From positions 1 to 41,230 of the IMG/VR virus record IMGVR_UViG_3300036985_003956: a DNA stretch of 41,230 nucleotides. The stretch is one strand, 5' to 3'. The DNA comes from a virus. The notes below the pieces were generated by a model. The model was given only the letters and a program-made list of their open reading frames with translations. It was not told the origin of the DNA and searched no databases. Both the position numbers and the translations under genes were made by a program. Of this stretch, positions 4,647 through 41,230 are shown piece by piece (the stretch's first letter is position 1; each line of letters starts with the position of its first letter).

Positions 4647-5225
4647 TTAAAGATTGAATTTATCATGTTTAATAAATTCCACTTGTTCTGGTTGATAATA
4701 TGGTCTATTCTTACAATATTTCTTAAACTTTTCCTCTCTTTTTTGTCTATGCTTAAACTCTAAGAATTTAAAACGAATTTGCAAATAACATTTAAATTTA
4801 TCTATTTTAAATCCCGGTATTGTTAAATAAGATTTTACTCTATTTACTTTTTTCAATATAGTTAAATATCTTCTTTTTTTTAAGTCTGGAAAAGTTAATA
4901 ATTGTCTTTCTAAAAAATCTTTAATTGGCTCTTTATTCCCGGAAAGTTTATATCTTATTATTATAAATCCAAAAGAAGATAAGTACTCATCTCTATATTC
5001 ATCTCTAATTTGAGTAGGTTTTTTATTATGTACTGCTCCATCAATTTCAATAATAATTCCTTTTTTAGGAATAGCTATATCGGCGATATACGGGGGGATA
5101 GCATATTGGGGATTAAACTCTATCCCCCAAGACGATAGTATGCTATAAAATTTCTGTTCATATAAATTATTCTTTTTAAATTGTTGTTTTCTATACATCA
5201 TTGTTCTTTCGGTCGTATTCATCAT
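4647..5225 (-). CDS. DUF559 / Vsr-like PD-(D/E)XK endonuclease
   Basis: 192 aa. IPPYIADIAIPKKGIIIEIDGAVHN carries the D...E-x-D core of DUF559/Vsr-like enzymes, followed by RDEYRDEYLSSFGFIIIRY. The C-terminal half is lysine-rich and probably binds DNA. Phage members are thought to be homing or nicking enzymes. No clear ribosome site precedes the ATG; expression may be coupled to the leader ORF ending 13 bases upstream. Confidence 0.8.
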   Translation of the reverse strand: MMNTTERTMMYRKQQFKKNNLYEQKFYSILSSWGIEFNPQYAIPPYIADIAIPKKGIIIEIDGAVHNKKPTQIRDEYRDEYLSSFGFIIIRYKLSGNKEPIKDFLERQLLTFPDLKKRRYLTILKKVNRVKSYLTIPGFKIDKFKCYLQIRFKFLEFKHRQKREEKFKKYCKNRPYYQPEQVEFIKHDKFNL

Positions 5226-5237
5226 AAATTTATTATA

Positions 5238-5399
5238 TTACAAAATAAATAATCCACCGGCAAGCAGGACAAACTTACCTCCGTGGGGGAGGCTGCCGAC
5301 CGGTGGATTACACAAAATAAAATCCGGCGCGAATAAATTCATATTCCTCGTCGGATTCTGGTTTTTGTTTGATTTTTCATAGTTTGTCATTTTTCTCAT
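5238..5399 (-). CDS. leader ORF A overlapping an attenuator-like hairpin (53 aa)
   Basis: Starts at ATG 5399 behind GTGGGGATGAAA and ends just beyond the hairpin at 5251-5309. Its C-terminus (FILCNPPVGSLP..., AGGLFIL) is simply the translation of the hairpin and T-run. A closely similar arrangement is at 39189-39320. It probably acts as a leader peptide rather than a working protein. Frame openings continue to 5423. Confidence 0.45.
   Translation of the reverse strand: MRKMTNYEKSNKNQNPTRNMNLFAPDFILCNPPVGSLPHGGKFVLLAGGLFIL
5251..5309 (-). terminator. attenuator-like hairpin in the DUF559 leader
   Basis: Perfect 10-bp outer stem AATCCACCGG/CCGGTGGATT (5251-5260 with 5300-5309) and inner stem CCTCC/GGAGG (5278-5282 with 5288-5292). 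Read leftward it is followed by ATTTATTTTG, a weak U-tract, then the DUF559 start. The outer stem is a palindrome in either direction. Confidence 0.65.
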
Positions 5400-5428
5400 T
5401 TTCATCCCCACGATGAACAGCAAATAAA

Positions 5429-5456
5429 ATTATAATACGATTTTCGGAAATGTCAA
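5429..5456 (-). promoter_or_regulatory. strong sigma-70-type promoter for the DUF559 leader
   Basis: -35 TTGACA (5451-5456), 16-bp spacer, -10 TATAAT (5429-5434), both matching consensus. The leader ORF starts about 30 bases downstream. Confidence 0.8.
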
Positions 5457-31788: not shown

Positions 31789-32388
31789 TTATCCTTTCTT
31801 TGCGTTTTTATGAAATTTTAAATGTTCAGAACGGCTTGAAAATAATCTTAAATTTTCTAATCGGTTATCGCTCTTAATTTCATTAAGATGATGTATTTCT
31901 TCTTTGGGTTTTAAAAAACGACTTAAAAACTTCTCCATTACTAATCTATGTTCATAAACATTACCATCACAATCAGTAAAAGGATGATAGGGAGAATACA
32001 TCCTAACATAGCCATTACTTATATGAGACTTAAGACGTTTTGCCGTTCCATAACATTTACGGCTACAATATTGAGCTTTATATTTAATTCGTAAACGAAT
32101 AGCCTTAATATAAAATTTTTTATGGCATATTTTACATTCTATATAGACCTTTTTTGAAATCCGATATTTTCTTTCGCAATCTTTACCACAAAAAGTCTTT
32201 TTATATATCTGAGAAAACGCTCTATAAAATTCATTTCCACAATAAAAACATCTTACTCCCTTACTTCTGTATCTTCTTACAACCGAATATCTACATTGAT
32301 TACTACAATATAAAGCTCCTCCTTTTTTTATTCGGCTCAAATAAACCTCAAAAGATTTTCCACACTGCTCGCAAATTCTTTTTACCAT
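31789..32388 (-). CDS. HNH homing endonuclease inserted in a glycosyltransferase gene
   Basis: 199 aa from ATG 32388 behind AAAAGGAGG. Three or four cysteine zinc knuckles (CEQCGKSF, CSNQC, CFYCGNEF, CKICHKKF) precede an HNH core (YEHRLVMEKFL, then KEEIHHLNEIKSDNRLENL). It has its own promoter and flanks of only ~60 bases, so it is a free-standing mobile gene rather than an intron ORF. Confidence 0.88.
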   Translation of the reverse strand: MVKRICEQCGKSFEVYLSRIKKGGALYCSNQCRYSVVRRYRSKGVRCFYCGNEFYRAFSQIYKKTFCGKDCERKYRISKKVYIECKICHKKFYIKAIRLRIKYKAQYCSRKCYGTAKRLKSHISNGYVRMYSPYHPFTDCDGNVYEHRLVMEKFLSRFLKPKEEIHHLNEIKSDNRLENLRLFSSRSEHLKFHKNAKKG

Positions 32389-37420: not shown

Positions 37421-37849
37421 TTACGCTGTTAAATTCCTAAAACTAACAATCTTTGCCTTTACATCATCATGGACAACATTGTTCCGGTCAGTCCATTTGT
37501 TAGGCTCATGAACAACTTTAGCCGAAACTGTGCGTCCTTCGATGTCTTCAACTTCCCAGTCATAAACCTTTTTCTCTTTCTGGGTAAATTCTTCAATCTC
37601 GATTCTTGACTCAATTCCTACCGCTTCAATCAGCTGGCGGAGTAGCCATCTTTTTCCGGGGATATTTGTTAAATCAATCTGCATACCCTCGCCGGCATCA
37701 AGCGCGGAAACAACATCAATGGTATATTTCGGATTGTTTGACTTGCTTGTTCCTGCTACCATTTTAACAATTTCAATATCAACCCATCCCTCCGGCGGTG
37801 TCCATCTGTTTGTACCAACATCATCACTAAAATCATCTCCTATTGGCAT
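37421..37849 (-). CDS. ssDNA-binding protein, DUF669-like (142 aa)
   Basis: TPPEGWVDIEIVKMVAGTSKSNNPKY, then KRWLLRQLIEAVGI and GRTVSAKVVHEPN matches the OB-fold-like DUF669 family of phage recombination modules. Placed next to the exonuclease and ERF annealing protein, it would protect single strands. Start two bases after the exonuclease stop. Confidence 0.72.
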   Translation of the reverse strand: MPIGDDFSDDVGTNRWTPPEGWVDIEIVKMVAGTSKSNNPKYTIDVVSALDAGEGMQIDLTNIPGKRWLLRQLIEAVGIESRIEIEEFTQKEKKVYDWEVEDIEGRTVSAKVVHEPNKWTDRNNVVHDDVKAKIVSFRNLTA

Positions 37850-37851
37850 TT

Positions 37852-38454
37852 TTAGCCTCCTATTTTTTTAACTACTTCGGTTAAATCAGAACAGAAATTT
37901 TGAAGCTCAACAGCAAGTATGCTCTGAAATTGTTTGTTCGGTTCAACGCGGATGATAAACGGTTTTATTCCCGGATAGTATGAACAGAAATCCACATATG
38001 CTCGTCCAGTAACAAATAATTGACCGTTTACTTGCAAAAAATATTCCGTAGGTAACTTGTTTTCCATTAAGTACGATACATGGGTTTCCGGTTTCGGACA
38101 TTTAATTTCCAGTAATCCATCGTCATCAATCAACCCATCCGGGCTGGCTCCAACGATAAAATCTCCTTCGGTTACGCAGAATCCTACCTGCACTATTGAC
38201 TTACCGGAAATAACCTCATACAACTGCCGGGCTTCCGATTCTGTTTCTACACCTTTCAGCATCGCCGCACTCTGATACGTTTCTTCTGTCCTACCCGCAA
38301 TTCTTTCAGCCGATAATTGATACATATACTTTTCACGAGAAGCAGAACGCTTTCCGGTAGTGGTAATTATTTTGTCAAAACATGATGATGTGGGAATCCC
38401 AAGTCTTGCTAAATACCATGAAGTTTCACCTTGTACGCAATCAATAACTCTCAT
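37852..38454 (-). CDS. YqaJ-type viral recombinase exonuclease (200 aa)
   Basis: YqaJ/lambda-exonuclease fold: WYLARLGIPTSS at the N-terminus; catalytic GASPDGLIDDDGLLEIKCPK with D, E-x-K; YFLQVNGQLFVTG (Q in the motif-III helix) and FCSYYPG. It degrades one strand of double-stranded ends so that ERF can anneal. Overlaps ERF by four bases. Confidence 0.9.
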   Translation of the reverse strand: MRVIDCVQGETSWYLARLGIPTSSCFDKIITTTGKRSASREKYMYQLSAERIAGRTEETYQSAAMLKGVETESEARQLYEVISGKSIVQVGFCVTEGDFIVGASPDGLIDDDGLLEIKCPKPETHVSYLMENKLPTEYFLQVNGQLFVTGRAYVDFCSYYPGIKPFIIRVEPNKQFQSILAVELQNFCSDLTEVVKKIGG

Positions 38455-39176
38455 TTCGCCACCTTATTTTTCTTCTTATTCTGCAAGGCAATCATGGCTT
38501 TCTGGTAATCTTCTTTCGGGAGTTCTTCGAGTTTTTCCACTTTGAGATATTTAAAAAATACCTCATTTTCTTTGGCTGATAAATTAAGTTCAGCCAGCAG
38601 GTCAAGGATTGCGTTACCTTGCTCTTTGGTGATATACTCAACCGCTTTTTGACCTGATGCTCTACCGTCATCATCCATATCCTCGGTAGCAAGTCCGGTC
38701 AAAGCAAGCAAAGTATAGCGTTCAAGATAGGTAATTGTTGACCCTATAGCCTGTATGGAGTTTTTAGATCCGCTGGAATCAGCCGCCGCCGAAAGAGTGG
38801 TTTCTTCGCTATGCCCTTGCATATGAGTTATCCGGCAAGTAACCATAATAACCTCGTTTTGTTTGGTAGTCCACGACGCAGAAAGACCATGCTTGCTAAG
38901 CTCCGCACCGATTTTCTTTGTTACATTTCCCAGGGAAGCATGATTATAATGTGTGTTCCCATAAGAAACTTTTTTGTCCTTATCAATCTCCGGCGGGTTA
39001 GCTTTAAAATTAGCCATCGCCTTATGGTATGACTTCCGTGCTTCGTTTGCATCAAACCTCTCTTTTATCTCAAGCAGTTTTTCCAACTTAGAAAGGTCAA
39101 CCCCTTTGTCAATCGCCATTTCAATTAAACTGCTTGGCGACTTTCCCACCTCAATTATTTCTTTTTTGTCTTCCAT
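38451..39176 (-). CDS. erf: ERF-family single-strand annealing protein
   Basis: 241 aa. MANFKANPPEIDKDKKVSYG, then YNHASLGNVTKKIGAELSKHGLSASW and IGSTITYLERYTLLALTGLATEDMDDDG are ERF signatures. C-terminal helical domain. It anneals strands made by the exonuclease, usual for phage recombination and concatemer formation. GGGGAGG precedes ATG 39176, right after leader B. Confidence 0.92.
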   Translation of the reverse strand: MEDKKEIIEVGKSPSSLIEMAIDKGVDLSKLEKLLEIKERFDANEARKSYHKAMANFKANPPEIDKDKKVSYGNTHYNHASLGNVTKKIGAELSKHGLSASWTTKQNEVIMVTCRITHMQGHSEETTLSAAADSSGSKNSIQAIGSTITYLERYTLLALTGLATEDMDDDGRASGQKAVEYITKEQGNAILDLLAELNLSAKENEVFFKYLKVEKLEELPKEDYQKAMIALQNKKKNKVAK

Positions 39177-39188
39177 CCTCTACCTCCC

Positions 39189-39320
39189 CTAAAATAAAAA
39201 TGCCTCAGCCGGGACAATAAAGATTGCTCTGCCAGAAGCTCCCGGACTGAGGCGATTAGACAAAAAAATACCGGCGAGGTTTTCTTTCTCGTCGGTTAGA
39301 TTGTCGGTGTAATTTCTCAT
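39189..39320 (-). CDS. leader ORF B overlapping an attenuator-like hairpin (43 aa)
   Basis: AAGGGATAAAAA precedes ATG 39320. The C-terminal half (GIFLSNRLSPGASGRAIF...) is read through the hairpin at 39202-39253 and ends in the T-run. It has the same plan and partly alignable ending as leader ORF A at 5238-5399. Probably a regulatory leader peptide for the recombination operon. Confidence 0.5.
   Translation of the reverse strand: MRNYTDNLTDEKENLAGIFLSNRLSPGASGRAIFIVPAEAFLF
39202..39253 (-). terminator. attenuator-like branched hairpin ahead of the ERF operon
   Basis: Stem GCCTCAG/CTGAGGC (7 bp) stacked on CCGGGA/TCCCGG (6 bp) with one bulged base; inside are CAAT/ATTG and a GCT..AGC hairpin. 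Leftward it is followed by ATTTTTATTTT, then the ERF ribosome site. Strong enough to end or pause transcription. Confidence 0.7.
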
Positions 39321-39345
39321 TTTTTATCCCTTCTGGCAATGGTTA

Positions 39346-39374
39346 AATATAACATGGAATTTATGGTTTGTCAA
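39346..39374 (-). promoter_or_regulatory. promoter of the recombination operon
   Basis: -35 TTGACA (39369-39374), 17-bp spacer, -10 TATATT (39346-39351). The -35 lies in the end of the upstream gene. Leader ORF B starts 26 bases downstream. Confidence 0.8.
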
Positions 39375-40714: not shown

Positions 40715-41230
40715 TATTTAACCTCCACAAAATTTCCGTTCTTGAGTTTATACCAAACATCTTCTTTTATTTTTACCCCGTCAACCAAAACAGATTTAAC
40801 TTCTTTTATGACCCACTCATTATTTTCTTGTTTCCACTCAGCTAAAACTAACCAGCAGGTTTTTTTACCTTTGGCTTTGTTTTCTATGCCTAACCCACAA
40901 GCAATAGATTGTTTCCCTTCAACGGAGGCGGCTGAGTAATAGCCCGTGTTGGAGGCGGCTGACCGATCGCCCGTGTTGGAGGCGGCTGAGTAATTGCCCG
41001 TGTTGGAGGCGGATGAGTAATCGCCCGTGTTGGAGGCGGCTGACCGATTGCCCGTGTTGGAGGCGGCTGACCGATCGCCCGTGTTGGAGGCGGCTGACCG
41101 ATTGCCCGTGTTGGAGGCGGCTGACTGATTGCCCGTGTTGGAGGCGGCTGAGTAATCGCCCGTGTTGGAGGCGGCTGACTGATTGCCCGTGTTGGAGGCG
41201 GCTGAGTAATAGCCCGTGTTGGAGGCGGCT
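40714..41230 (-). CDS. DUF7666-type repeat protein, C-terminal part (continues from the left end of the window)
   Basis: Enters from the right edge in the 9-residue repeat frame, with eleven repeats. It leaves the repeats at VEGKQSIACGLGIENKAKG and ends in a small domain (CWLVLAEW, then VDGVKIKEDVWYKLKNG) typical of the C-terminus of DUF7666 proteins. The TAA stop overlaps the ATG of the next gene (TAATG). It is the continuation of the gene at 1-549. The repeat number across the junction is uncertain because assembly ended inside the repeats. Confidence 0.85.
   Translation of the reverse strand, partial: AASNTGYYSAASNTGNQSAASNTGDYSAASNTGNQSAASNTGNRSAASNTGDRSAASNTGNRSAASNTGDYSSASNTGNYSAASNTGDRSAASNTGYYSAASVEGKQSIACGLGIENKAKGKKTCWLVLAEWKQENNEWVIKEVKSVLVDGVKIKEDVWYKLKNGNFVEVK
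40924..41230 (-). repeat. 27-bp tandem repeat, right block
   Basis: Eleven copies of the same 27-bp unit as at the left edge. Read N to C the variable pairs are YY, NQ, DY, NQ, NR, DR, NR, DY, NY, DR, YY. One unit carries an extra change (SSAS instead of SAAS). The last 16 bases equal the first 16 of the window. Confidence 0.95.

Follow-up and report, generated by a model that had tools for sequence, protein, structure and literature searches.

To our knowledge, most of what has been learned about how free-standing homing endonucleases are regulated comes from T4-like phages. The leader open reading frame (ORF) of the E. coli pyrBI operon (pyrL) has about 44 codons, and in ColIb-P9 repYZ leader peptide translation and long-range pairing control a replication gene. 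In pyrBI, the leader ORF runs into a terminator hairpin, and termination is prevented by a ribosome coupled to transcription across the leader peptide (PMC5021804). A terminator just 3' of a translated gene is almost completely repressed by the ribosomes of that gene (PMC4824070). In T4-like phages, homing endonucleases are kept low by RNA structures at the Shine-Dalgarno sequence (SD) (PMC2988022), so a switch on homing endonuclease genes is expected in kind; the build described here differs. The T4 gene 32 operator combines a pseudoknot with an A+U-rich ribosome site (PMC3014915).

The DNA studied here, hereafter the window, is the 41,230-base IMG/VR virus record IMGVR_UViG_3300036985_003956. 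Four of its genes are relevant to the analysis.

4647..5225, minus strand: DUF559 nuclease-like gene (Pfam PF04480, 5.1e-12)
37421-37849, minus strand: third ORF of the ERF operon, 142 aa
37852..38454, minus strand: YqaJ exonuclease gene (Pfam PF09588, 4.6e-23)
38451..39176, minus strand: ERF recombinase gene (Pfam PF04404, 6.6e-20), ATG at 39176

The minus-strand order of the ERF operon is a leader (~170 nt), ERF, the YqaJ exonuclease, and the 142-aa protein. The original prediction had called the third gene SSB, an assignment that we could not confirm, as searches of Pfam, PHROG, and PDB gave the 37421-37849 product no noteworthy match. No homologues of the DUF559 gene were found in IMG/VR or cultured phages. 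A 27-bp tandem repeat, whose 27 bases would translate as 9-residue repeats, is present at both record ends (40837-41230 and 1-256), which makes it probable that the record is a circle and that the repeat lies across its junction. The window also carries an HNH_3 gene, listed as an ORF from 32424. That start falls within the gene's own promoter, TTGACA-17-TATACT (32443-32415), and translation probably begins instead at the ATG at 32388, which follows AGGAGG; the gene has this promoter but no structured leader (32443-32386).

The ERF leader (minus strand, 39374-39177) has the following parts.

39346..39374, minus strand: putative ERF operon promoter TTGACA-17-TATATT (11/12 in a consensus scan, TG before the second hexamer)
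39330..39339, minus strand: arm a, TTGCCAGAAG, near +1, overlapping the leader-ORF SD and pairing with a'
39189..39320, minus strand: leader ORF, 43 aa, MRNYTDNLTDEKENLAGIFLSNRLSPGASGRAIFIVPAEAFLF and stop, open through the rod, with its stop at the end of the U tail
39270..39296, minus strand: hairpin 1, ACCGACGAG..CTCGCCGGT
39255..39269, minus strand: conserved ATTTTTTTGTCTAAT, common to the DUF559 leader and contigs L016, L223, and L222
39202..39253, minus strand: rod (hairpin 2), predicted at -25.8 kcal/mol, with a' in its apical part
39253-39245 and 39210-39202, minus strand: rod arms b and b', respectively
39229..39238, minus strand: a', CTTCTGGCAG, complementary to arm a
39189..39201, minus strand: U-rich tail ATTTTTATTTTAG, overlapping the leader ORF stop

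The DUF559 leader (5456-5238) is built in the same way.

5429..5456, minus strand: putative promoter TTGACA-16-TATAAT (12/12 consensus match)
5406..5413, minus strand: arm a, TCGTGGGG, overlapping the leader SD
5238..5399, minus strand: leader ORF, 53 aa, open through the rod, with its stop at the end of the U tail
5323..5355, minus strand: hairpin 1, TCCGACG..CGCCGGA, then TTTTATTTTGTGTAAT
5249..5311, minus strand: rod, predicted at -33.7 kcal/mol, with a' (CCCCACGG) at 5288-5281

Both promoters are consensus matches, from which +1 was deduced. The common order of parts is promoter, leader ORF with SD, hairpin, U-run with GUSUAAU, rod, and U-rich tail. The U-run between hairpin 1 and the rod reads AUUUUUUUGUCUAAU or AUUUUAUUUUGUGUAAU, and the U tails are interrupted (AUUUUUAUUUU). 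The ERF tail is followed by the SD GGGAGG and the ERF ATG.

Local DNA alignment of the two leaders gave a score of 59, compared with 22.4 +/- 3.5 (maximum, 44) for 1000 dinucleotide-shuffled sequences, none of which scored as high (0/1000). The leaders were each other's best off-site match within the 41-kb window, where nothing else aligned nearly as well to either, and they were mutually closest relatives (next best score, 49). The motif GATTANACAAAA had exactly two perfect matches in the window, GATTAGACAAAA (39254) and GATTACACAAAA (5306), both on the plus strand and followed by CCGGCG at 39271 and 5324, respectively. The alignment score, the mutual best match, and the unique GATTANACAAAA sites together confirm the likeness. 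The original prediction of two alignable leaders with the same part order thus holds far above chance, and the plus-strand motifs on which it was built, GATTA-ACAAAA with CCGGCG and AAATAA, are real. Its strand needs correction: the element is transcribed from the minus strand, where it starts with a promoter and holds a leader ORF, and where the GATTANACAAAA sites become the U-run UUUUxUGUSUAAUC, CCGGCG becomes the 3' arm of hairpin 1, and AAATAA becomes the U-rich tail after hairpin 2. The pairing of the 5' arm, the leader ORF, and the alternative fold had been missed.

Relatives were gathered from ERF homologues (80 loci), by a DNA pattern, and by a promoter-anchored scan. Leaders of the same build were found ahead of nine HNH nuclease genes (two of them broken), three replication genes, and a few others.

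L016/L225, 8229: leader in frame with an HNH gene; 1965: before HNH_3
L222, 531 and 2472: before HNH_3
L223, 6741: before a broken HNH gene; 10260 and 12587: before HNH
L032, 8191: before HNH
L002, 3875: before an HNH remnant
L009, 2822, and L017, 3751: before replication initiation genes
L073, 11880: before a Lin1244-type gene
L005, 4580: before an HTH-like gene
L047, 1780: before a different gene

The last two show that the element does not always precede nuclease or recombination genes, a point that the original prediction had proposed to check. The DNA pattern search brought in L222 and L223. The ERF leader aligned with L016p (score 49) and L223a (40), each with 0/300 shuffles as high, and the DUF559 leader aligned with L016p (34, 0/300); neither window leader aligned with most of the short-type leaders, in which arm a leads from about +1 directly to the U-run. 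In the promoter-anchored scan, 13/423 promoters scored at least 46, compared with 3/1594 control positions, 2 of these 3 being the same elements at an offset. At loci chosen only for their ERF gene, 7/119 good promoters scored at least 40, compared with 2/458 controls (Fisher p = 3e-4).

Further searches were negative within their scope. A GCCGG-anchored pattern scan returned one chance terminator only, a broad promoter/U-run pattern gave no new true case among the matches listed, and five annotated phage regions held no instance. No real instance came from a pattern scan of genome contigs, from the pattern in 400 genomes of the phylum of an Anaerolineales genome, or from a covariance model in 149 genomes of the phylum of a Eubacteriales genome, results that do not demonstrate absence. 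Two side observations concern single contigs: L047 (1780-2160) has a tandem pair of leader-like elements, of which the second falls within the 5' portion of a longer frame, and L147 (12215-12817) has a leader-like element, possibly a chance match, before an endonuclease-like gene with weak PHROG endonuclease matches.

Seven leaders had an upstream leader ORF, and in none of them did a stop codon interrupt it before the end of the rod (shuffle product, 6e-6); in six of the seven its stop lay 8-29 nt past the rod, i.e., at or soon after the U tail. Six leaders had ORFs of 40-53 aa, mostly with an SD, and in one the ORF was fused to the gene. The leader stop overlapped the nuclease start in L222a, L032, and L223a, as expected under coupled translation, and the ORF stopped inside the element in two of the five short-type leaders. 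As in pyrBI, the leader ORF runs into, and overlaps, a terminator-like hairpin with a U tail. The differences are that arm a, at the 5' end, can pair with a' in the rod to give a second, exclusive fold, and that the genes are those of phage DNA metabolism. ColIb-P9 repYZ likewise combines leader translation with long-range pairing, for a different gene set. ORFs of this length, mostly with an SD and all open through the rod, might instead encode functional small proteins, the resemblance of the RNAs being secondary. We consider this improbable: the two window peptides aligned no better than chance (score 17; shuffled, 19.6), the reading frame over the conserved UGUCUAA differs between L016p and ERF, and stem nucleotides covary. 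A conserved small protein was rejected as a candidate on the same ground, that leader peptides do not align.

In both window leaders, arm a, near the transcript start, shares bases with the leader-ORF SD, and its complement a' sits apically in the rod. The pairing spans just 8-10 bp, and we compared it with 2000 dinucleotide-shuffled loops for each leader. The ERF helix score of 23.5 was equaled in 18/2000 shuffled loops, and the pairings of DUF559 and L016p in 27/2000 and 33/2000, respectively. The first three pairings had been spotted by eye; L222a and L223a were found later by sequence pattern only, and they confirmed the a/a' prediction (0/2000 and 7/2000). In L223a, arm a follows the leader AUG and does not form an SD.

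Covariation was assessed in alignment A1, which comprises the five short-type leaders aligned by MAFFT without structure. Most of these leaders came from searches requiring a/a' and b/b', which selects for those two helices, so the following figures are biased upward for P1 and P2: P1 (a/a', columns 1-17 with 64-80) had 94% of cells paired (slid controls, 37-53%) and both sides changed in 15/17 pairs, and the rod (P2, P2b, and P3) had 86.7% paired (slid controls, 39-51%) and both sides changed in 14/18 pairs. In P2b and P3, helices never used in finding the sequences, both sides changed in 9/11 pairs. Further support came from two conserved blocks that were no part of the search criteria, an AGUA/GAA internal loop and a UUAAYC hexaloop. 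Columns 67-73 of P3 lie inside a', so the full P1 and rod folds are mutually exclusive. The predicted stability of P1 exceeded that of the rod in L222a, L016m, and L002 and equaled or nearly equaled it in L032 and L223a. In the window leaders the rod was predicted to be the more stable (ERF, -42.5 vs -34.7 kcal/mol; DUF559, -57.7 vs -43.6 kcal/mol). Each window leader appears capable of two alternative folds around its tiny leader gene, one excluding the other.

These results bear on two further explanations. In one, the hairpins are ordinary intrinsic terminators in tandem, which insulate the operon and have come to resemble each other through convergence in AT-rich DNA. This would account for the U-rich run after each hairpin, and our loose patterns were matched by generic terminators in many contigs. 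Yet the elements come after the promoter of the operon itself and within an ORF, the shuffles exclude chance alignment, and insulation leaves the a/a' pairing and P1 covariation unexplained, which makes such terminators a very unlikely account.

The main rival is a translational operator, in which the P1 loop exposes b and b pairs with b', immediately 5' of the U-rich stretch and ribosome site. The resulting loop-tail pseudoknot would let either this pairing or a phage protein govern the access of ribosomes, much as the operator of T4 gene 32 does. RNAalifold of A1 places b in the apical loop of P1, and b' adjoins an A+U-rich stretch before the gene start; the AGUA/GAA loop and the UUAAYC hexaloop of the short-type leaders resemble recognition motifs. 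The geometry of A1 would therefore permit a pseudoknot beside an A+U-rich ribosome site at a phage DNA-metabolism gene, as in T4 (PMC3014915), but the rod covariation argues for exclusive folds: P3 shares a' with P1, and both cannot form together. The 8-9 nt linker is also short for a pseudoknot given a P1 of 15-17 bp. Unlike in T4, the two folds here would be alternatives, the third operon gene is no recognized SSB, and we know of no autoregulating protein for these leaders. The SD of the nuclease lies inside b' in two L223 relatives (10351 and 12609) and only there; in the window the nuclease's own SD is not paired, and the ERF SD GGGAGG is outside the rod. An operator of this kind seems to us unlikely, although less so than insulating terminators or small proteins. 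T4 I-TevI and SegB and Aeh1 MobE resemble the present case in that RNA structure limits the expression of a phage homing endonuclease (PMC2988022). In those genes read-through transcripts form a helix that masks the nuclease SD; in the window it is the leader-ORF SD that is paired, and the element has its own promoter.

A covariance model, R1, was built from the five short-type leaders only. It recovered its own members, and the next-ranked matches in 879 kb were L223a, L047, L223b, and L016p (E, 0.018-0.063), all four left out of model building; on inspection, L047 had a full leader with a 43-aa ORF. On the window, R1 ranked the ERF leader second at 14.5 bits (E = 0.4) and did not list the DUF559 leader. 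The window leaders are therefore tied to the covarying set not through the model but through the intermediates L016p and L223a, through the U-run, through the pairing of a with a', and through the way the ORF is laid out. No leader matched Rfam 15 at gathering score; the best matches were at chance level (FMN, 10.2 bits, at a leader, and SAM-III, 22.3 bits, elsewhere in L047). We found no description of such leaders in the literature covered, which takes in few subscription journals. The leaders look like an undescribed family of phage gene switches, a candidate RNA family of the leader-ORF attenuator type, a type that is already known.

Several known elements were considered and rejected. For IscB/HEARO, the L016 HNH protein reached IscB over the HNH domain only (24.6 bits; cutoff, 175), with no HEARO match. 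HDV-like ribozymes and the group I intron core were similar in topological order alone, and their required motifs and Rfam matches were absent. Programmed frameshifting at U-UUU-UUA was dismissed, arm a being upstream of the slippery-looking run. Plain sequestration of the ribosome-binding site of either downstream gene, ERF or DUF559, was likewise dismissed, since the SD that pairs belongs to the leader ORF.

The comparisons support the anatomy of the leader: the resemblance between the two leaders, the arrangement of the ORF, the pairing of arm a with a', and, in relatives, covariation of both mutually exclusive folds. We infer its mode of action, including termination, ribosome coupling, the direction of control, and mobility. 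Our preferred reading, to which we would give somewhat less than an even chance, is a translation-coupled, alternative-fold attenuator that is pyrBI-like in principle. Transcription of the window leaders would begin at or close to arm a, the arm that overlaps the short leader ORF's SD, and the rod would act as a terminator-like hairpin with a U-rich tail within the ORF body, holding a' inside it. A ribosome on the nascent leader would trail the polymerase, hold the rod open, and reach the stop at the end of the U tail; the downstream gene would then be transcribed, and coupling would also have it translated wherever its start codon overlaps the leader stop. Should a ribosome fail to load in time, the rod would fold and transcription would stop, or, alternatively, a' would pair with arm a and hide the leader SD. 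Ribosome-dependent opening of the rod would thus limit expression to transcripts licensed by early translation. The attenuator reading predicts dependence on leader translation. Evidence against it includes the interrupted U tails, the short a/a' helix and more stable rod of the window leaders, and the ORF stops inside two short-type leaders. A generic terminator scan, moreover, listed neither the ERF rod nor the DUF559 rod, the scan covering the ERF rod allowing loops of 3-8 only.

Among IMG/VR ERF homologues with enough upstream sequence, 0/69 carried a leader directly upstream of ERF, a test in which the ERF of the window reached a score of 46. It is therefore probable that the leader is no ancestral part of the ERF operon. 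Near relatives L083 and L084 had leader regions that were not covered or were without a leader. Absence from homologous operons had been named in advance as evidence against the original prediction; to us it suggests instead that the ERF operon acquired its leader. A shared cassette is supported by this count, by the closest-relative leaders, and by the same build in unrelated contigs, and the putative joint regulation of nuclease and recombination genes is plausible. Mobile (homing-type) nucleases would be one set of partners of the cassette, and phage genes for replication and recombination the other; in the window one copy would drive DUF559, and the ERF operon would have acquired another. 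It is possible, though we hold it with less confidence than the attenuator itself, that an undescribed family of leader RNAs, each using a 5' arm to capture a portion of the terminator-like rod within its leader ORF, travels with homing-type nucleases and has been adopted by replication and recombination operons, so that one translation-dependent switch times both selfish nucleases and the recombination genes that repair cuts. If true, this would be a new cis-regulatory RNA family before HNH, DUF559, ERF, and replication genes in unrelated phages, and regulatory cassettes would be seen to move between selfish nucleases and core phage genes.

At L223 (6741-7100) and L002 (3875-4200), the leaders look intact and the HNH genes are broken or truncated, suggesting that leaders can outlive the nuclease. 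In L229 (MW202613.1, 11923-14319), a homing endonuclease gene is annotated between ERF and the exonuclease, which marks ERF operons as targets of homing endonuclease insertions.
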